DNA from: a virus
Length of the DNA stretch: 40,443 nt
Virus record (IMG/VR): IMGVR_UViG_3300043427_000269
Coordinates: 1 to 40,443 of that record
Strand: one strand, 5' to 3'
Shown: piece after piece, positions 1 to 38,201 of the stretch
Layout: every line of letters starts with the position of its first letter
Numbering within the stretch: the stretch's first letter is position 1
Made by a program: the position numbers and the translations under genes
The notes under the pieces: generated by a model
The model's input: only the letters and a program-made list of their open reading frames with translations
Told to the model about the DNA's origin: nothing
The model's database searches: none

Positions 1-126
1 CTTTCGTCCTTGTCCTGTCCGAAGATGATGGATCTCAGACGGCGTATCGTCAAAGCCAAGTCTTCTGCATACCGAGCATCCGAGTCCCGCCACACGAGAG
101 AGATAATTTTTTTCATCTTTGGTCAC
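1..126 (-). CDS. Ref-like HNH nuclease, N-terminal fragment (runs off the contig)
   Basis: This is the first 42 codons of the gene that is complete at 38183-38461, cut by the contig start. It begins with GTG at 126 and shows the Cys-pair CSVC and the HHLR motif of the zinc/HNH fold. In this allele the methyltransferase stop (113-115) lies 14 nt inside it, and the stop of the overlapping alternative frame (127-129) touches the GTG directly. If the contig is circularised at 38336, the gene is intact, so the truncation is an assembly effect. Confidence 0.85.
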   Translation of the reverse strand, partial: MTKDEKNYLSRVAGLGCSVCRRLGFDDTPSEIHHLRTGQGRK

Positions 127-127
127 T
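1..127. repeat. 127-bp exact copy of 38336-38462 (left contig-end overlap)
   Basis: Every base from 1 to 127 matches 38336-38462; base 128 is c here and t in the other copy, so identity stops at exactly 127 bp. The block covers the start of the Ref-like HNH gene. The length equals the largest k-mer used by common short-read assemblers, so it is best read as the entry node of a graph bubble and not as a biological terminal repeat. Confidence 0.93.
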
Positions 128-1153
128 CAAGACTTCCCATGCTGTTCTAGCCACCTCTGAAACTTGTCCGTTTCCAATGGCTTTAAGTCTGTCCATTCTA
201 GAGGCCACCCCATCAACCACTCTACCCACGTCGGGTTCAATTTCCCACCAACTGACGCAGCCAGAGTTGGAGTGTTGCGTTCCGATTCCGATGGGGCGTT
301 TGTCTCTTTGGCATTGTGTGCCGTCGGTGTAGGAAATTTCTTTTTCCAAGTTCGGTGATTTTCCAACTTCGGAAGGCTCAACATTGCTTCCGCTTCTTCC
401 TTGGTAATCATTCCATCCTCTATCTTGGAGATCAAGTTTGATACCATCCCCTCCGACGCATGACCGTAACCCTTTGTTGCTGGAGTTGGCCACATCCGTT
501 TCTTGACTATTTCTTGAAGTCCTTGTTGCTTGCTGTTCGGCCCTCTTGGTTTCCAATCCGACGCAAGTGGAGTTGGCCACGTTTCCTGCCGCTTTTTTAA
601 TGCCTTCCGACTGTGACTCCCGCCATCCAAGCCGGTGCAGTTCGGCGTGTGGAAAAACGTGTCTCCATCCGGCAATCCAGATTCGATCGCGCTGGTGCGG
701 CGCTCCGACATCGGCTGCTCCCAACACGCCCCATCTCGCATCAAACCCCATCGAGGCCAAGTCTCCGAGAACTCGTCCAAGTCCCCTAGAAGTGAGCATT
801 GGTGAGTTTTCCACGAAGACGTATTTTGGTCGTACTTCGTGAATGATCCTTGCCATGTGTGACCACATTCCTGATCGCTCTCCGTCAATTCCTGCGCCTT
901 TTCCTGCGGCTGAGATGTCTTGGCATGGAAACCCGCCAGATACGACGTCAACAATCCCTCTCCACGGCCTTCCGTCAAAGGTTTGTACGTCATCCCAAAT
1001 CGGGAAAGTCGGGAGAAAGCCGTCATTTTGTCTGGCGCACAGTACGCTTGCTGGATACGGTTCCCATTCGACTGCACAGACTGTTCTCCATCCGAGGAGA
1101 TGTCCCCCAAGTATTCCTCCACCAGCGCCTGCGAAAAGAGCCAACTCATTCAT
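113..1153 (-). CDS. DNA (cytosine-5-)-methyltransferase
   Basis: Predicted to transfer a methyl group from SAM to cytosine C5 in DNA, probably protecting phage DNA from host restriction. The 346-aa frame shows the family motifs in order: FAGAGGG (motif I, residues 7-13), GGFPCQDIS (motif IV, catalytic Cys77), VENS (motif VI, 114-117), QRDRIWI (motif VIII, 154-160) and a C-terminal RLKAIGNGQV (motifs IX/X). The region between about 165 and 300 is low-complexity and would hold target recognition. ATG at 1153 follows a GGGGGA ribosome site 3 nt upstream; the next ATG, 4 nt on in another frame, opens a second 340-aa frame. The C-terminal residues LSDQR come from sequence shared with the other allele. 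The gene is absent from allele B, so it is a variable 'moron'. Confidence 0.93.
   Translation of the reverse strand: MNELALFAGAGGGILGGHLLGWRTVCAVEWEPYPASVLCARQNDGFLPTFPIWDDVQTFDGRPWRGIVDVVSGGFPCQDISAAGKGAGIDGERSGMWSHMARIIHEVRPKYVFVENSPMLTSRGLGRVLGDLASMGFDARWGVLGAADVGAPHQRDRIWIAGWRHVFPHAELHRLGWRESQSEGIKKAAGNVANSTCVGLETKRAEQQATRTSRNSQETDVANSSNKGLRSCVGGDGIKLDLQDRGWNDYQGRSGSNVEPSEVGKSPNLEKEISYTDGTQCQRDKRPIGIGTQHSNSGCVSWWEIEPDVGRVVDGVASRMDRLKAIGNGQVSEVARTAWEVLSDQR
127..1149 (-). CDS. Long same-strand ORF fully overlapping the methyltransferase (possible second protein)
   Basis: A 340-codon frame lies +1 to the methyltransferase and is open throughout. ATG at 1149 is 4 nt after the methyltransferase ATG (ATGAATG), and its spacing to the GGGGGA site (7 nt) is better than that of the methyltransferase. 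The stop at 127-129 abuts the GTG of the next gene. The product looks protein-like: SSWKTHQ and FSETWPRWGLMRDG (about residues 111-140), WPTP at 191 and 220, FPTP at 272, a helical stretch at 242-262 (KIEDGMITKEEAEAM...), and LNPTWVEWLMGWP at 304-316. I recall phage hypothetical proteins with the same motifs, but some of those may also be alternative-frame translations. Function unknown. It could be a real dual-coded gene, a frameshift partner, or a by-product of methyltransferase codon use. Confidence 0.5.
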   Translation of the reverse strand: MSWLFSQALVEEYLGDISSDGEQSVQSNGNRIQQAYCAPDKMTAFSRLSRFGMTYKPLTEGRGEGLLTSYLAGFHAKTSQPQEKAQELTESDQECGHTWQGSFTKYDQNTSSWKTHQCSLLGDLDEFSETWPRWGLMRDGACWEQPMSERRTSAIESGLPDGDTFFHTPNCTGLDGGSHSRKALKKRQETWPTPLASDWKPRGPNSKQQGLQEIVKKRMWPTPATKGYGHASEGMVSNLISKIEDGMITKEEAEAMLSLPKLENHRTWKKKFPTPTAHNAKETNAPSESERNTPTLAASVGGKLNPTWVEWLMGWPLEWTDLKPLETDKFQRWLEQHGKS

Positions 1154-1257
1154 TGTTCCCCCTTTATCCGTAGCCACACTAAAACTTCTTCCCAACTCAA
1201 CGGTGTCTCGTTTAAGTCTGGTTCACGCAGTCCAAACAGTTTGTAATCTATCTTCAA
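1150..1257 (-). CDS. 35-aa conserved-looking small protein
   Basis: TTG start at 1257 overlaps the NinB stop (TTGA) and sits 6 nt after GAGGAG. The stop lies inside the ATGAATG of the methyltransferase. The peptide begins LKIDYKLFGLREPD and contains a tryptophan-rich amphipathic stretch (SWEEVLVWLRIK). The tight coupling on both sides and the good ribosome site support translation. It is present only in allele A together with the methyltransferase. No family was recognised; it may serve mainly for translational coupling. Confidence 0.55.
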   Translation of the reverse strand: MKIDYKLFGLREPDLNETPLSWEEVLVWLRIKGEQ

Positions 1258-1625
1258 GCCAATCTCCTCGTATCTTCAGAAAACTTCACTTCATGTTCAG
1301 CAGCCCACTTAATCACCTTCTCTATATACTCCGAGAACTCGTTTACACGCAGTTCAGCAGTGCTAGGTTCTAGCATCTTCATGCTTCCGTCTGGTAGTTC
1401 GATGATGCGCTCAGGCAAGAACAGTCCTCGCAGGTACTCATGCCACACAGACTGCTCATACGCCTTACCAGGCACTACCTGTTCTGCTATATCACCGAGG
1501 ATAGACCAGTAGTAGCGATTCTGTTCTAGCGAGCGTTTGGTCTGTCTGATCTCTATGGTGTGGCCGTCAGGCGCAGCGTCTACCATCTGGTGAGCGATCT
1601 CACGGTTGTATTTGGTGAGGATCAC
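1254..1625 (-). CDS. ninB: NinB-like recombination protein (allele A copy)
   Basis: NinB (lambda Orf) binds single-stranded DNA and helps recombination-mediator steps, bypassing RecFOR. The 123-aa product carries the family pattern KRSLEQNRYYWSILGDIAEQV, split here only by description, then a WHEYLRGLFLPE segment and a C-terminal Ser-Glu-Tyr helix region ending in DTRRLA. GTG at 1625 overlaps the previous stop (GTGA), which fixes the start. It is nearly identical to the copy at 38448-38828, differing at scattered residues and at the last residues, where allele A ends LA and allele B ends LSDQR. Confidence 0.85.
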   Translation of the reverse strand: MILTKYNREIAHQMVDAAPDGHTIEIRQTKRSLEQNRYYWSILGDIAEQVVPGKAYEQSVWHEYLRGLFLPERIIELPDGSMKMLEPSTAELRVNEFSEYIEKVIKWAAEHEVKFSEDTRRLA

Positions 1626-2350
1626 TTCATATCCTCCTCTGCCATGTGACAGAAAATTCCGCACTCGATTGCTTGTTCTGTTGGGTAGTCACCAGCGTTT
1701 TTAGGCAAATCTGTTAGCCAAATACGTTCTCCGTTATGCTTGAGAATCTTGGCGTTTAGTGTGCGCTCCATCTTTGCCATTCGGTCAAACTGTTCTGGGA
1801 AATCGTGTCTGATTTTGTTCCAGTACCCTAGACCGCCTTTTACACAGCCTATGCAGTTGTTGTTCTGGTAGCCAAGTTTATACATTGCAGGTAGTTCTAT
1901 GCCAGCGCGTTCTAGGATTGCTAGGCAGTCCTGCTTTGTAAGGTTCTTCTCTATCAGAATCGACCACAGGTTTACGTCGTTGTTAGCGTCTATAAACCGA
2001 TCTACTCGGTCTTGCTCCTCTAGCGTGTAGCCAAATACTTGGCGATCACCAGCCTGCTCAAACTTCTTCCGCATCTCTTTCTTTAGAAGACGAGTGCATG
2101 GCGCACCTGCTACGCCTACAAGGTACTTTGTCTTTTCAAACACCTCATAGATACTTCCGTTGTACTTCTCATTACGAATAACCTTAATTTCTTGCCCAAA
2201 CCATTTCTCGCAGTCGTCCTTGAACCGCATATTGTCTGGATGTTCTTCGCGCACATGGCAGTACACAATTTCTACTGGCACTTCTGCAAGCGCAAGTTTT
2301 GTAGCCACAGCAGATGCAGCGCCACAGGAAAACCAGCAGATAGTTCTCAT
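1622..2350 (-). CDS. PAPS-reductase-family PP-loop protein
   Basis: Members of this superfamily adenylate or reduce sulfur-containing substrates; in phages the substrate is usually unknown. The 242-aa product has the PP-loop SCGAASAV (residues 8-15), a Cys in GAPCTRLLK (about 85), GYTLEEQDRVDRF (107-119) and a metal- or Fe-S-type pair CIGC (166 and 169) followed by KGGLGYW. ATG at 2350 overlaps the upstream stop (ATGA), and its TGA overlaps the NinB GTG. In allele B the same junction runs directly from the replisome gene into ninB, so this gene is a clean cassette of about 725 bp. A role in DNA or tRNA thio-modification is possible but not shown. Confidence 0.82.
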   Translation of the reverse strand: MRTICWFSCGAASAVATKLALAEVPVEIVYCHVREEHPDNMRFKDDCEKWFGQEIKVIRNEKYNGSIYEVFEKTKYLVGVAGAPCTRLLKKEMRKKFEQAGDRQVFGYTLEEQDRVDRFIDANNDVNLWSILIEKNLTKQDCLAILERAGIELPAMYKLGYQNNNCIGCVKGGLGYWNKIRHDFPEQFDRMAKMERTLNAKILKHNGERIWLTDLPKNAGDYPTEQAIECGIFCHMAEEDMK

Positions 2351-16626: not shown

Positions 16627-16944
16627 GTGAAAAAACTAGGTACAGACGTACACAAGGGTACGGTTAAGTCGTACTACGCAGACGGCGAGGGTGGGCTGGT
16701 AATCAAGTCCGAGACAGACATAACGCCGTTCATAGAGAAGAACAAAGCAGAATACGCACAGATCGACAACAAGGCGAAGTGGGGCGAACTTACAAAGATC
16801 GCTTCTATACCGTTTGCTGTGATCCAGATGCTGAACGAGAAAAAGATTCTGCGAGGATTCCACATCGTTGACCAGAAGGCTCTAAAGGCTTGGTTGAACG
16901 ATCCGGAGAATCAGTATTTCAGGACGCGCCCAGGGCGGGTGTAG
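16627..16944 (+). CDS. 105-aa hypothetical protein
   Basis: GTG at 16627 is chosen because an earlier in-frame GTG (16588) lies inside the terminator stem. The sequence has a beta-rich start (GTVKSYYADGEGGLVIKSE) and a helical end (MLNEKKILRGFHIVDQKALKAWL). A phage-conserved 'vKSyyadgegGLviks...' pattern is familiar to me, but no family can be named. It sits between capsid and glycosyltransferase genes. Confidence 0.6.
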   Translation: MKKLGTDVHKGTVKSYYADGEGGLVIKSETDITPFIEKNKAEYAQIDNKAKWGELTKIASIPFAVIQMLNEKKILRGFHIVDQKALKAWLNDPENQYFRTRPGRV

Positions 16945-16952
16945 GAGGTAGC

Positions 16953-17681
16953 ATGGCTAAAAAGAGGGTGGCCATCTGTATCCCTAGCAGGGGTGAGATG
17001 GAGATTGGCACAGCGTTTGACCTGGCCAATATGGTTGGGTTTGACAGTCGTTACCGCAAAGGAGACACGGTTCTCTACACGGTCAACGGCACATTGATAT
17101 TCGATCAGCGCGAGAAACTCGTAAAAGAGGCGCTGAATGACGGTGCGGATTACATTCTCTGGATAGACGCAGATATGCGTTTCCCAAAGGATACGATCCA
17201 AAGGTTGATCGCACACAACAAAGACATCGTAGGCGTAAACGCCACTACTCGCTCGATCCCTGTAAAGGCTACGGCAAAGAACCTGCTGGTTGACCAAGAG
17301 AACCGCGTCAACACATGGAATCAGGTATCGTCTAAGAACAAGACAGGACTAGAAAAGGTCACGGCCATCGGTTGTGGCGTGATGATGGTCAAGGCTGAGG
17401 TCTATAAAAAGACTCCGCAGCCGTGGTTTTGGTTCGAGATGCTTCCTGGCGACAAGTTACTAGGCGAGGACGTTTACTTCTGCGTTAAGGCGTATGACGC
17501 TGGTTTTGACACTTGGGTAGACCACGGGTTGTCCAACGAGATCGGGCATATCGGGTCTTACACCTTTGGATGGCACGACATTTCATTGGAAAACGAACAT
17601 GGCTCTGACCAATTACTCGGATCTAAAGACCACGGTAGCCAACTACCTGGGTCGAACGGATCTAACAAGCCAGATACCTGA
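16953..17681 (+). CDS. Glycosyltransferase family 2-like, inside the virion operon
   Basis: Would transfer a sugar from a nucleotide sugar to an unknown acceptor. The 242-aa product has an AICIPSRGEMEIG start, a GT-A-type metal motif YILWIDADMRFP (DAD at 72-74), and IGCGVMMVKAEVY with a later ED-containing FCVKAYDAGF. ATG at 16953 has a TAGGAGGT site. The last 83 nt overlap the adaptor gene in another frame, so the C-terminal tail is unusual low-complexity sequence. Position beside capsid genes suggests virion decoration (inference). Confidence 0.78.
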   Translation: MAKKRVAICIPSRGEMEIGTAFDLANMVGFDSRYRKGDTVLYTVNGTLIFDQREKLVKEALNDGADYILWIDADMRFPKDTIQRLIAHNKDIVGVNATTRSIPVKATAKNLLVDQENRVNTWNQVSSKNKTGLEKVTAIGCGVMMVKAEVYKKTPQPWFWFEMLPGDKLLGEDVYFCVKAYDAGFDTWVDHGLSNEIGHIGSYTFGWHDISLENEHGSDQLLGSKDHGSQLPGSNGSNKPDT

Positions 17682-30503: not shown

Positions 30504-30677
30504 ATGGCACAGCACACGGAAGAAATTAAGCACATTGCAGACGGTCTTTCCATTATGACCGTCATTGGTACTCTGGCTGAAGTTCTACCCGCAATCGCAG
30601 CCCTTTTCACAATCATCTGGACTGGGTTTCGGATCTACGAGACCGAGACAGTAAAAGGCTGGCTTAAACGCAAATGA
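30504..30677 (+). CDS. 57-aa holin-like membrane protein (class II-like)
   Basis: One strong transmembrane helix (residues about 16-44: IMTVIGTLAEVLPAIAAL and FTIIWTGFRIYE) follows a polar amphipathic N-terminus (AQHTEEIKHIADGL) and ends in a basic tail KGWLKRK. This 'IADGLS...W..FRIYE' type is familiar among T7-like class II holins. The ATG overlaps nothing upstream, and the stop overlaps the next gene by 4 nt. It opens the lysis region. Confidence 0.72.
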   Translation: MAQHTEEIKHIADGLSIMTVIGTLAEVLPAIAALFTIIWTGFRIYETETVKGWLKRK

Positions 30678-31117
30678 CCACAATCGCCGCGAGAGTATCT
30701 ACGGGAGAAATAGCCGCAGACTCGATGGTAAGCGGCGATGATTCCTTCTACCTAGTCGAGAAACTCCGTAGGGGTAAGAACTCTATATATGGGGCTTGCG
30801 GAGACTGGGATAAATGTTTGAAAATGCTACAAGTGTTGGAGTCTGGAGGGGATCTAGACTCCGACATGGATGTGTGTGTTCTTGAACTCAGAAATGACGG
30901 CCTCTGGATTTATGAAGGGACTATCATTCCTGCGCGTATTAAGAACGACTTTTGGGCTATTGGGACTGGGGCTAACTTTGCCATTGCTGCGATGCACTGC
31001 GGCAAGTCTGTACAGGAGGCGGTGGAGATCGCGTGTATGTACGACACCAGTTCACATGGGCCGATTGACCTTATGCGACTGGGAGGCAGGGGTGGGAAAA
31101 CTAAAAGTAACCGATGA
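30674..31117 (+). CDS. HslV/proteasome-like N-terminal nucleophile protein
   Basis: The 147-aa product begins M-T-T-I-A-A-R, so Met removal would expose Thr1, the nucleophile in HslV. Asp15 and Lys29 (after Met removal) fall at places comparable to the HslV Asp17 and Lys33. AIGTGANFAIAAM (95-107) matches the HslV Gly-rich loop, and SVQEAVEIACMYDTSSHGPI its C-terminal helix. An active self-assembling protease or a structural relic are both possible. It sits between a holin-like gene and a metallophosphatase, an unexpected neighbourhood. Confidence 0.8.
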   Translation: MTTIAARVSTGEIAADSMVSGDDSFYLVEKLRRGKNSIYGACGDWDKCLKMLQVLESGGDLDSDMDVCVLELRNDGLWIYEGTIIPARIKNDFWAIGTGANFAIAAMHCGKSVQEAVEIACMYDTSSHGPIDLMRLGGRGGKTKSNR

Positions 31118-32033
31118 ACAACTGATAGAGGCGTTTAAAAGGTTAGGTAGTCCAACAAAGGTGGCGCAAGAATTTAACATAGAGGTCACCAGGGTTTACG
31201 CAAGACGGAGAATGATCGAAGCAAAGGGTATAAGCCTTCCGTCATTTAGCGCAAGACAGAAAACCGTATTTGAAACCGTAGTCCCAGAGAATCGCCGAGT
31301 AATTACGCACAACGTCACTAACGGGCATATTTTTGTTGCCTCTGACTGCCACTATTGGCCTGGGGAAGTTACTACGGCGCATAGGGCGTTCGTAGAACTA
31401 ATCACCGCCTTTAAGCCAAAGACCATCGTCCTAAACGGGGATGTGTTTGACGGGGCTTCTGTGAGCCGCCACCCGCCTCTGATGGGTCAGGTGAACCCTA
31501 CCCCCAAGCAAGAGATAGAAGCCTGTCAAGACCGTTTAGACGAGATTGGGAAGGCATCCAAGAACGCAGTCAAACTTTGGACGTTCGGCAACCACGATAC
31601 GCGGCTCTTTGCCAAGATCGCGGCAGTCGCTCCGGAACTTGTCGGAATGATGAGTTTGTTCGACTACTTTCCTGGTTGGCATACCGGCTGGCGAATAGAT
31701 GTAAATGACCACACAGTCATTAAACATAGATGGCATGGCGGCGTTCATGCGACGATGAACAATGCTATGAAGTCCGGCAAGAATATTGTCACCGGCCACC
31801 TGCACCAGTTAAAGGTAACGCCGTGGTCTGACTATAACGGGCGACGGTACGGAGTAGATACCGGAACCCTTGCGGAACCGTATGGCGATCAATTCGTGTA
31901 CACAGAGGGCAATCCGGTGAACTGGTGTTCCGGCTTTGCGGTGCTGACGATTAGAGACGGCAAACTACTGCCGCCAGAGTTATGTGAAGTAATTGATGGT
32001 GAGGCTTTCTTTAGGGGAGAGAAAGTGATCTAG
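31092..32033 (+). CDS. Calcineurin-like metallophosphatase with N-terminal HTH
   Basis: Metal-dependent phosphoesterase. Motifs are in order: SDCH (84-87), NGDVFDG (115-121), FGNHDTR (165-171) and GHLHQ (235-239). The first 50 residues (DEQLIEAFKRLG and TKVAQEFNI ... VYARRRMIEAKG) form a helix-turn-helix. GTG at 31092, 5 nt after GGAGG, starts inside the HslV-like gene (26-nt overlap). Substrate unknown; DNA processing is plausible because of the HTH. Confidence 0.83.
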   Translation: MGKLKVTDEQLIEAFKRLGSPTKVAQEFNIEVTRVYARRRMIEAKGISLPSFSARQKTVFETVVPENRRVITHNVTNGHIFVASDCHYWPGEVTTAHRAFVELITAFKPKTIVLNGDVFDGASVSRHPPLMGQVNPTPKQEIEACQDRLDEIGKASKNAVKLWTFGNHDTRLFAKIAAVAPELVGMMSLFDYFPGWHTGWRIDVNDHTVIKHRWHGGVHATMNNAMKSGKNIVTGHLHQLKVTPWSDYNGRRYGVDTGTLAEPYGDQFVYTEGNPVNWCSGFAVLTIRDGKLLPPELCEVIDGEAFFRGEKVI

Positions 32034-36299: not shown

Positions 36300-36961
36300 A
36301 ATTCTGCGAGTTCAGGTCGATTCTTCTCTATCCACGGCTGCGCGTCTCTTACGCATTGCATTGCATTTTGCCCACACGTCTGGGAGCCAACGTGGTGGAC
36401 GTATGCCGTAGAGATAAAGTGGCGCTGGCCTGTTTGTTTTTGGTCTAGGCATTGGATATCGTCCGAATACCAGTTGATCGGCGGGAAGTCGATCCAGTCG
36501 TCTTTGTGTATATACGCAAATATAGGCGCGATCACGTCCACTTCTATAATCTTGCCCTCAGACTCGTACCGGAAGAAGGACATCGGCCCCTCACCGAGCC
36601 TCACGTTCTGGTATCCTCTAGCGTAATCGCTGCGGGATGCGACATAACCGAGGTCTCTGATTTGCCTTTTCAACTGTGAAACTTCTTTGGCAAGCGTAGG
36701 CCAGGTGTACGGTGTCAGCACAATATCGTCATTGGCGATCACCACCTCGTCGAACTCCTCAAACGCTCGGTGCATAACCGCGTTGTAAGCGTCTCCAAAG
36801 TTCTTGTGGGGGTTGGGTAGGTTCACGGTGCGGTGACGCGGTAGAACCATGTCAGAACCCGCTATAAAGACCGTTACGTCGGTCGGAACGTAGAATGTGA
36901 TAGAAGCCAGCATAACTGGCAGACACTTTGCGTTAGTCGTGCAGATGGCTATGGCTTGCAC
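36281..36961 (-). CDS. Glycosyltransferase-like protein (GT2/GT-A type)
   Basis: The 226-aa product has AICTTNAKCLPVMLASI (start of the nucleotide-binding fold), a DDI motif in VVIANDDIVLTPYTWP (about 73-88), and a C-terminal DDIQCLDQKQ-like acidic segment. GTG at 36961 overlaps the previous gene. Together with the next two genes it forms a block of three sugar-transfer proteins, possibly for glycan attachment to phage DNA, virion or host surface. Enzyme activity is inferred. Confidence 0.65.
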   Translation of the reverse strand: MQAIAICTTNAKCLPVMLASITFYVPTDVTVFIAGSDMVLPRHRTVNLPNPHKNFGDAYNAVMHRAFEEFDEVVIANDDIVLTPYTWPTLAKEVSQLKRQIRDLGYVASRSDYARGYQNVRLGEGPMSFFRYESEGKIIEVDVIAPIFAYIHKDDWIDFPPINWYSDDIQCLDQKQTGQRHFISTAYVHHVGSQTCGQNAMQCVRDAQPWIEKNRPELAELWFKKK

Positions 36962-37599
36962 TTCTTGTACTCCTCGATCCTGTGAGACGCATGGATTGTA
37001 AACAGGTCAGAGTCTAACATTTCTCTGTCACAGATATTTACCGTACTGTTGTTTTTGTGCAACACATAGGGCAGGGACACTTGATCTTTGATCCCCCACT
37101 TCAGAATTTCCCGCCACCACATCTCGCCGAGCGCCATGACCTCTAGGCTCTTTGTATTGCGACAAATCATGCCGCATGAATACAGACCGGCATTTAACGG
37201 CATACCGTCGTCTAGGTAATCCTGACCCTGCTCAAGCATGGGCTGGTCTGCGTACTTCTTCATTTCGTGGGCTTCTGCGATCTCCGCAAACAGGCAGTCA
37301 CGCCACGGGTGCTTGAACATCGCCCATGAGTCTTTCGCCTGGGAGACAAAGTACTCCGCAAAATTCGGCGACTCTATCCTGATAGACCCGTCTATCCAGA
37401 TCGTGTAGTCGTAGCCCATGCCGTTGCCTAGCAGCCGGTGCGGTAATAGTTTGTAGTACTTGGCCTGCAAACGTGGATTGTCGCCAAGTTCCTCGTGCGG
37501 CGAGGAGAACATTAGGAAGTCACAGTCTATATTTTGCTCAACGTGATCCTTTACGTCATCGTAATCACCGAAGATTGATGTATATACAAGAACCTTCAA
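36949..37599 (-). CDS. DUF616/TOD1-type glycosyltransferase-like protein
   Basis: TTG at 37599 is chosen: it overlaps the upstream stop (TTGA) and follows GGAGG at 5 nt. The 216-aa protein starts LKVLVYTSIFGDYDDVKDHV, the signature start of the TOD1/MUCI70 (DUF616) family, and has YDYTIWIDGSIRIES (a D-x-S-type metal site) and MPLNAGLYSCGMICR. The order of motifs supports the family. The acceptor is unknown. Confidence 0.78.
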   Translation of the reverse strand: MKVLVYTSIFGDYDDVKDHVEQNIDCDFLMFSSPHEELGDNPRLQAKYYKLLPHRLLGNGMGYDYTIWIDGSIRIESPNFAEYFVSQAKDSWAMFKHPWRDCLFAEIAEAHEMKKYADQPMLEQGQDYLDDGMPLNAGLYSCGMICRNTKSLEVMALGEMWWREILKWGIKDQVSLPYVLHKNNSTVNICDREMLDSDLFTIHASHRIEEYKKCKP

Positions 37600-38201
37600 A
37601 TACGCCTCCAGGGGAAACGCAAACAATGATGACTTCGACCTTTCTTGATTTTCTCGTAGTAGAGACCTTCATTGTTCGGTACTCTGGTGAGGACGCAATC
37701 TGCATCGTGTTGAGTGCACAGGATTGGGAGGGTGAACTCGACGATGCCAGCGCGTTGGAACAGATGCCGCAGATACGGGTCGTTGTATCCATAGAAACCG
37801 GCAAAGTCCTCGTCATAGCCGCCGACGGCCCAGTAGTCGAGTCTGTTCACTAACAGCGTTCCAGCCGTTCTAGGCCGGTTCTTGCGGGTGAACGAGTAGA
37901 ACTTACCGCGTTCTAGTTTGGTAGCCAGGATAGCGTCTATGCTTCCCTTGCTAAACGTCTGGTCTGTGTCGCAGAAAAGTATCCACTCTGTCGGGCAGAC
38001 GGTTGCGCCTAAGTTTCTAGCACCTGGGATATTCCACGGAATGTCTTGTTCTATCCGGTAGACGGGTACGTTAGCGTGAGGCGGTTCTAGACTGCCGTCA
38101 TCTATGATCTGCTTTTTGACGTAGGGGTAGGTATCCCATTCGTTTAGGTGTTTGTCTAGGTGTTCGTGGTCGTTGTAAAACGTCAGCGAGATAGTAAACA
38201 C
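37596..38201 (-). CDS. Glycosyltransferase family 2 protein
   Basis: The 201-aa product has ISLTFYNDHEHLD, QIIDDGSLEPP (32-42), PGARNLGATVCPTEWILFCDTDQ (59-81, metal motif DTD) and GGYDEDFAGFYGYNDPYL, typical of GT-A enzymes with an N-terminal galactosyltransferase-like part. GTG at 38201 follows GAGGAG. It is first of the three sugar-transfer genes and overlaps the HNH gene by 19 nt. Confidence 0.83.
   Translation of the reverse strand: MFTISLTFYNDHEHLDKHLNEWDTYPYVKKQIIDDGSLEPPHANVPVYRIEQDIPWNIPGARNLGATVCPTEWILFCDTDQTFSKGSIDAILATKLERGKFYSFTRKNRPRTAGTLLVNRLDYWAVGGYDEDFAGFYGYNDPYLRHLFQRAGIVEFTLPILCTQHDADCVLTRVPNNEGLYYEKIKKGRSHHCLRFPWRRI

Follow-up and report, generated by a model that had tools for sequence, protein, structure and literature searches.

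How should a kilobase of viral DNA be read when two long frames of the same strand are open across it? The question arises at the start of the window, by which we mean the whole 40,443-nt stretch of IMG/VR virus record IMGVR_UViG_3300043427_000269, where a gene for a C5-cytosine methyltransferase chain (alpha) shares its DNA with a +1 frame (beta). We consider it very likely, with a probability of about 0.88, that the two frames encode one obligate alpha/beta heterodimeric C5-cytosine methyltransferase. Both frames are conserved and under selection, and the methyltransferase motifs are divided between them. Expression and methylation activity are inferred, and translation from ATG 1149, formation of a dimer and the residence of specificity in beta are inferred from sequence alone.

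Coordinates of the overlapping methyltransferase genes, their motifs and the adjoining sequence elements in the window
Feature	Position	Strand	Basis
Alpha: C5-cytosine methyltransferase chain, 346 aa, motifs I-VIII and X, without motif IX; ATG 1153 to stop at 113, 347 codons including stop	113..1153	(-)	
Beta: 340 aa, +1 frame relative to alpha, putative target-recognition region and motif IX; ATG 1149 to stop at 127, 341 codons including stop	127..1149	(-)	
GGGGGA, Shine-Dalgarno-like, common to alpha and beta	1157..1162	(-)	Sequence; function inferred
ATGAATG, overlapping starts (alpha ATG 1153, beta ATG 1149)	1147..1153	(-)	
HNH-like ORF from GTG 126, cut by the contig end; a neighbour, outside the enzyme	1..126	(-)	Translation
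Alpha motif I, LFAGAGGG	1115..1138	(-)	Invariant in alpha alignment
Alpha motif IV with catalytic Cys, GGFPCQDIS	911..937	(-)	Invariant G74, F75, P76, C77
Alpha motif VI, FVENSPML	794..817	(-)	Invariant E115, N116
Alpha motif VIII, GAPHQRDR	683..706	(-)	Invariant R155, R157
Alpha motif X, DRLKAIGNGQV	161..193	(-)	Invariant G327, N328, G329, Q330, V331
Alpha codons 173-300, read as linker; beta-constrained DNA	254..637	(-)	Substitution ratios
Beta conserved block, FSETWPRWG	745..771	(-)	P132, G135 invariant in 109 sequences
Beta variable region, (W/F)PTP blocks at residues 191, 220 and 272	250..654	(-)	Inferred target-recognition region
Beta motif IX (inferred), LNPTWVEWLMGWPLEWTD	187..240	(-)	Profile match to RLTAAFPEWMMGWPAGWVT

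The original prediction had described the two ORFs with their coordinates, codon counts and +1 relation, one GGGGGA ribosome site for both frames, and a second frame ending exactly where an HNH gene begins. The ORFs held exactly; GGGGGA does lie upstream of both ATGs, its role being inferred; and the beta stop (TGA, 129-127) directly abuts GTG 126. Since GGGGGA stands 7 nt upstream of the beta ATG and 3 nt upstream of that of alpha, its spacing fits beta no worse than alpha. The HNH identity of the neighbouring ORF was called by eye. This ORF lies in the beta frame directly after the beta stop, so that read-through would fuse the two.

Several other features of the window may be recorded in their own right. 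A PAPS-reductase-like gene (1625..2350, minus strand) adjoins NinB just upstream of the methyltransferase. Two glycosyltransferase-like genes (16890..17681 and 36949..37626) have Anp1-like and TOD1/MUCI70-like Pfam matches, and one of them adjoins an SU10-type adaptor gene. On the plus strand, the ORFs 30674..31117 and 30870..32033 have about 248 bases in common; the second shows a metallophosphoesterase domain only from residue ~150, and thus its true start is possibly further in.

The chance of such an open frame had been put at the order of 1e-7, which proved too strong. When the amino acids of alpha were fixed and its own synonymous codons permuted, the +1 frame stayed open in 2.5e-4 of 20,000 shuffles. 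With the codon usage of the other window genes it was open in none of 20,000 (mean 9.7 stops), and the +1 frames of the ten largest other window genes contain 8-35 stops. The openness of alpha's +1 frame is still unusual against those genes, and the comparative evidence far outweighs any chance calculated on a single sequence.

Querying viral contigs with alpha only retrieved 80 loci of 55-69% identity, and the count of openness was restricted to these; several other loci of this clade (clade 1) came from beta queries, and the comparative set consists mostly of metagenomic contigs. The +1 frame was open across the gene in 79 of the 80 alpha-selected loci, where the +2 frame carried 8-29 stops. 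Beta lies in +1 in all 159 sequences (158 loci and the window), and its ATG is kept in 157 of them. The alpha start varies, being ATG, GTG or TTG 4 nt upstream of the beta ATG or elsewhere, and in some loci beta begins before alpha. Alpha codon 2 (Asn2) is AAT in 74/74 distinct alpha-selected loci, against a background share of 41% elsewhere in alpha and 45% in the genes flanking it; AAC at this codon would destroy the beta ATG. Two loci (L156 and L316) have a single in-frame stop each in an otherwise intact beta frame. We rejected two further candidate exceptions: L370 as a non-open beta, for it carries an HNH insertion after beta's end and failed the length criterion only, and L272 as a separate beta gene, which is actually an indel within a +1-overlapping locus.

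For the substitution analysis, 55 independent sequence pairs of 70-98% identity were used, and each difference received a two-letter class, the first letter (N or S) giving its effect in alpha and the second (N or S, or X for a stop) its effect in beta. Counts were divided by opportunities, and multiple hits were ignored. If beta were noncoding, dSN/dSS would be expected to be about 1, and 26 flanking genes from the same pairs gave 0.97 (0.78-1.22). At alpha codons 1-60, 61-120, 121-172, 173-300 and 301-346, the ratio was 0.25, 0.22, 0.25, 0.61 and 0.37, respectively. Among changes silent in alpha, those that would create a beta stop had, in the N-terminal half, a rate of 0.12-0.33 relative to the others (controls, 1.08). 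The +1 frame is thus a gene under purifying selection along its length and not a silent ORF.

The two frames share the constraint unevenly. Across alpha codons 173-300, dNN/dSN was 1.23 (1.15-1.32), which leaves no detectable constraint on alpha, while beta is constrained there (dNN/dNS 0.50, 0.42-0.59; dSN/dNS 0.40). In the catalytic part alpha leads and beta is constrained too, in the middle beta alone matters, and at the C-terminal end both are constrained. The original prediction had found the second frame the more ordered in the middle region, which held.

What, then, does each chain contribute? Alpha matches Pfam PF00145 (5.4e-33, residues 4-225), phrog_363 (4.6e-67) and the M.HhaI profile (2.5e-17, motifs I-VIII only), and motifs I, IV (PCQ), VI (EN), VIII (RxR) and X (GNxxV) of C5-cytosine DNA methyltransferases are all present; invariance was scored over 73 sequences. 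Motif IX was not found in alpha: the alignment to M.HhaI extends no further than motif VIII, and that to PF00145 no further than residue 225. In the usual monomeric PF00145 members, motif IX and the catalytic domain share one chain, whereas in the window motif IX is assigned to the +1 frame. An AlphaFold model of alpha was poor (pLDDT 49), and residues 165-319 had no structure in it.

Beta matched phrog_1008, labelled 'DNA methyltransferase' (1.1e-26), with no match in Pfam, NCBIfam or PADLOC and no significant one in a PDB profile search; AlphaFold modelled it poorly alone (pLDDT 58.8, pTM 0.25). Its variable region is indel-rich, most relatives having one to three (W/F)PTP motifs, and in single-chain relatives the beta-type variable region sits between motifs VIII and IX. 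At its C-terminal end beta carries LNPTWVEWLMGWP, which we infer, from sequence alone, to be motif IX by reference to single-chain and tandem-split actinobacteriophage methyltransferases. In a profile comparison, LNPTWVEWLMGWPLEWTD of the window aligned with RLTAAFPEWMMGWPAGWVT of those enzymes (probability 96.9%, E 1.5e-10). Because this type of element is positioned between motifs VIII and X, it would be motif IX, and the PTP-rich stretch that precedes it would then be the target-recognition region. PHROG family 116 spans both the alpha and the beta halves. The N-terminal half of beta is also conserved, including the first ~100 residues, which overlap the catalytic domain, and neither motif IX nor target recognition accounts for the conservation of those residues.

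The same parts occur in relatives in three arrangements. In Filuzino gp68, Leonard gp5 and prophi104-2 gp17, motifs I-VIII, the PTP repeats, motif IX and motif X follow one another in one chain. In TaylorSipht the first chain, gp40, has nothing beyond motif VIII; the PTP repeats, RLSPRFTEWMMGQPAGW and motif X are in gp41, which lies in +1. Zaka gp91/gp90 is a split of the same type with a +1 overlap, and motif X lies in the second chain in both phages. Natural fusions are standard evidence of joint function, and they indicate that the alpha and beta halves work together. The nested form was found in Acinetobacter phage ABMM1, on a Leptospira plasmid, in Mycobacterium phage Spikelee (with a shorter beta) and in many bacterial genomes, where the loci are probably prophages. 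Among 115 further loci, mostly retrieved with beta queries, beta overlapped alpha in +1 in 111; of the remaining four, two are the tandem splits and two have apparent frameshifts. A Bacteroides plasmid also has the nested layout, with two stops in alpha. In this locus (L252, NZ_OY725930.1, from Bacteroides finegoldii) they are in-frame TGA codons at 1002 and 1122 and the +1 beta is intact; possibly alpha is dead there, or TGA is read as a residue on that plasmid.

A divergent clade (clade 2), from Enterobacteriaceae and viral contigs, repeats the design, with beta open in 75/77 loci. In 25/47, a GGAG lies embedded within conserved alpha codons, 8 nt upstream of the +1 ATG. Clade 2 also supplies internal controls: dSN/dSS is 0.88 before beta and 1.47 after it (with a wide interval, 0.90-7.93), against 0.52, 0.40 and 0.28 inside, and constraint is thus absent outside beta both upstream and downstream. 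As a separate observation, L370 (IMGVR_UViG_3300010965_000208) of this clade has additional sequence, placed after beta's end and before motif X, that reads in +1 as HNH homing endonuclease-like, with the alpha frame open throughout, and it resembles the hidden HNH insertions of the ShiLan type (PMC11855218). In E. coli Ec1117 (L390, NZ_CP126602.1, 1496..2665), the annotation divides a C5-methyltransferase into two incomplete pseudogenes with a gap of ~107 bases between them, and this might be a hidden-frame insertion rather than decay.

Such evidence induces us to propose the following scenario. Ribosomes on a single Shine-Dalgarno sequence would start at either the alpha or the beta ATG, 4 nt apart, and thus both subunits would be made from one mRNA. 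Alpha would bring the catalytic domain (motifs I-VIII), followed by an unconstrained linker and motif X, while beta would bring the target-recognition region and motif IX, and the two would assemble into one enzyme, which neither chain could yield by itself. The large domain would be mostly alpha and the small, target-reading domain would be beta, the middle of alpha serving as a spacer, with beta determining its sequence. We infer that the phage most likely uses the enzyme to protect its own DNA from restriction by modifying it. Among the neighbouring genes of the window that were checked, none was seen to encode a restriction enzyme.

The original prediction had left three possibilities: a dual-coded partner protein, which is supported, and a frameshift product or an open but silent frame, which are disfavoured. 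It would have been refuted by stops scattered through the second frame of relatives, which were not seen (79/80 and 75/77 open), or by a lack of selection on that frame beyond what the first imposes. The check it had proposed, collecting homologues and comparing synonymous and nonsynonymous change in both frames, was run, and beta is clearly under purifying selection.

The rival that survives best holds that beta is translated but is a separate partner, such as a regulator or an anti-restriction factor, and no methyltransferase subunit. In its favour, beta belongs to no Pfam or NCBIfam family, and its N-terminal half is conserved beyond what motif IX and target recognition explain. Against it, beta-type sequence is fused between motifs VIII and X in the three actinobacteriophage methyltransferases named above and tandem-split elsewhere, motif IX lies in beta and is missing from alpha, and the +1 overlap recurs in 111 of the 115 further loci. 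We therefore regard a separate partner as very unlikely.

We would give even less credit to programmed +1 frameshifting from alpha into the C-terminal part of beta, yielding an alpha-beta fusion. The single-chain enzymes of related phages do indicate that such a fusion can be workable. However, a separate, conserved ATG for beta is present in 157/159 loci, constraint on beta sets in with its first codons, the fused product would lack motif X, which stays under selection in the alpha frame, and clade 2 has an embedded Shine-Dalgarno sequence and an internal ATG. The last rival, an open but silent frame maintained by biased codons, can appeal to the permutation result, by which the openness of a single sequence is not overwhelming, but the frame is conserved and stops in it are selected against, which together with the dual-frame ratios all but excludes this rival, and the substitution analysis refutes it in practice.

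Returning to the heterodimer, a conserved beta occurs in hundreds of phages and prophages, and the design is far commoner than annotation suggests. At nested loci usually only alpha is annotated. Stenotrophomonas phage SOVA965 (L250, 910..1410) has the opposite: the gene annotated 'DNA-cytosine methyltransferase' is beta, and the catalytic alpha is unannotated. On balance, we also lean towards a bolder reading, offered as a whole: that a large proportion of the 'single-protein' C5-methyltransferases of phages and prophages are alpha halves of dual-coded enzymes with their specificity in an unannotated +1 frame, that one ancient design can pass between nested, split and fused states, and that the long beta of the window has a further, as yet unassigned function in the part that overlies the catalytic domain. 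If the heterodimer reading is right, many of the phage methyltransferases that have been cloned or modelled as monomers would lack activity, the annotated protein would not reveal the specificity, and one half of a common enzyme would be missing from databases. With its nested, split and fused versions, the family provides a natural set for studying how overlapping genes originate and how two frames share constraint; at the window locus, alpha yields its middle to beta. Among the overlapping genes described, few have a selected overlap that runs the full length of ~1 kb and gives the two halves of one enzyme.

Finally, we would like to compare the locus with known systems. In the open literature searched, we found no report of phage genes that are dual-coded in this way, although this absence is weak evidence. 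The window shares its motifs, PTP-repeat region and type of motif IX sequence with Filuzino gp68 and Leonard gp5, where everything lies in one frame rather than two. Out-of-frame HNH insertions, the ShiLan domain, have been described in actinobacteriophage methylases (PMC11855218), and there, as in the window, a second-frame protein is hidden in a phage methylase gene. However, that protein is a homing endonuclease insertion, whereas beta is no insertion and, in our reading, forms part of the enzyme. That paper, published in 2025, deals with HNH frames hidden in related actinobacteriophage methylases, and its text has no mention of EcoHK31I or of 'target recognition'. M.AquI (CYCGRG) is a split C5-methyltransferase whose two polypeptides complement to one enzyme (PMC3404938). 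The actinobacteriophage splits, Zaka gp91/gp90 and TaylorSipht gp40/gp41, look M.AquI-like; motifs IX and X both belong to the small subunit of M.AquI, whereas the window has nested frames and carries motif X in alpha.

The closest precedent is M.EcoHK31I (YGGCCR), a two-polypeptide C5-methyltransferase whose large subunit has motifs I-VIII and X and whose small subunit has motif IX only, the predicted target-recognition domain being assigned to the large subunit (PMC3404938). Lee, Kam and Shaw reportedly showed in 1995 that its small gene lies inside the large one in a different frame; its beta has about 176 aa and a start internal to alpha. Our searches of Enterobacteriaceae and E. coli identified no EcoHK31I among the prophage methyltransferases and the divergent clade. 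The original prediction had missed both this precedent and a motif IX in the partner. In the window, too, alpha has motifs I-VIII and X, beta is assigned motif IX, and beta is nested in alpha in another frame, and the division of motifs between two polypeptides is thus already known. Unlike that of M.EcoHK31I, however, the beta of the window has 340 aa and spans essentially all of alpha, starts 4 nt after it on one ribosome site, from which co-initiation is inferred, and belongs to a phage gene, and selection places the functional variable region in beta rather than in the large subunit. We might conclude that the full-length beta, the inferred co-initiation and the functional variable region in beta are what is new in the window enzyme.
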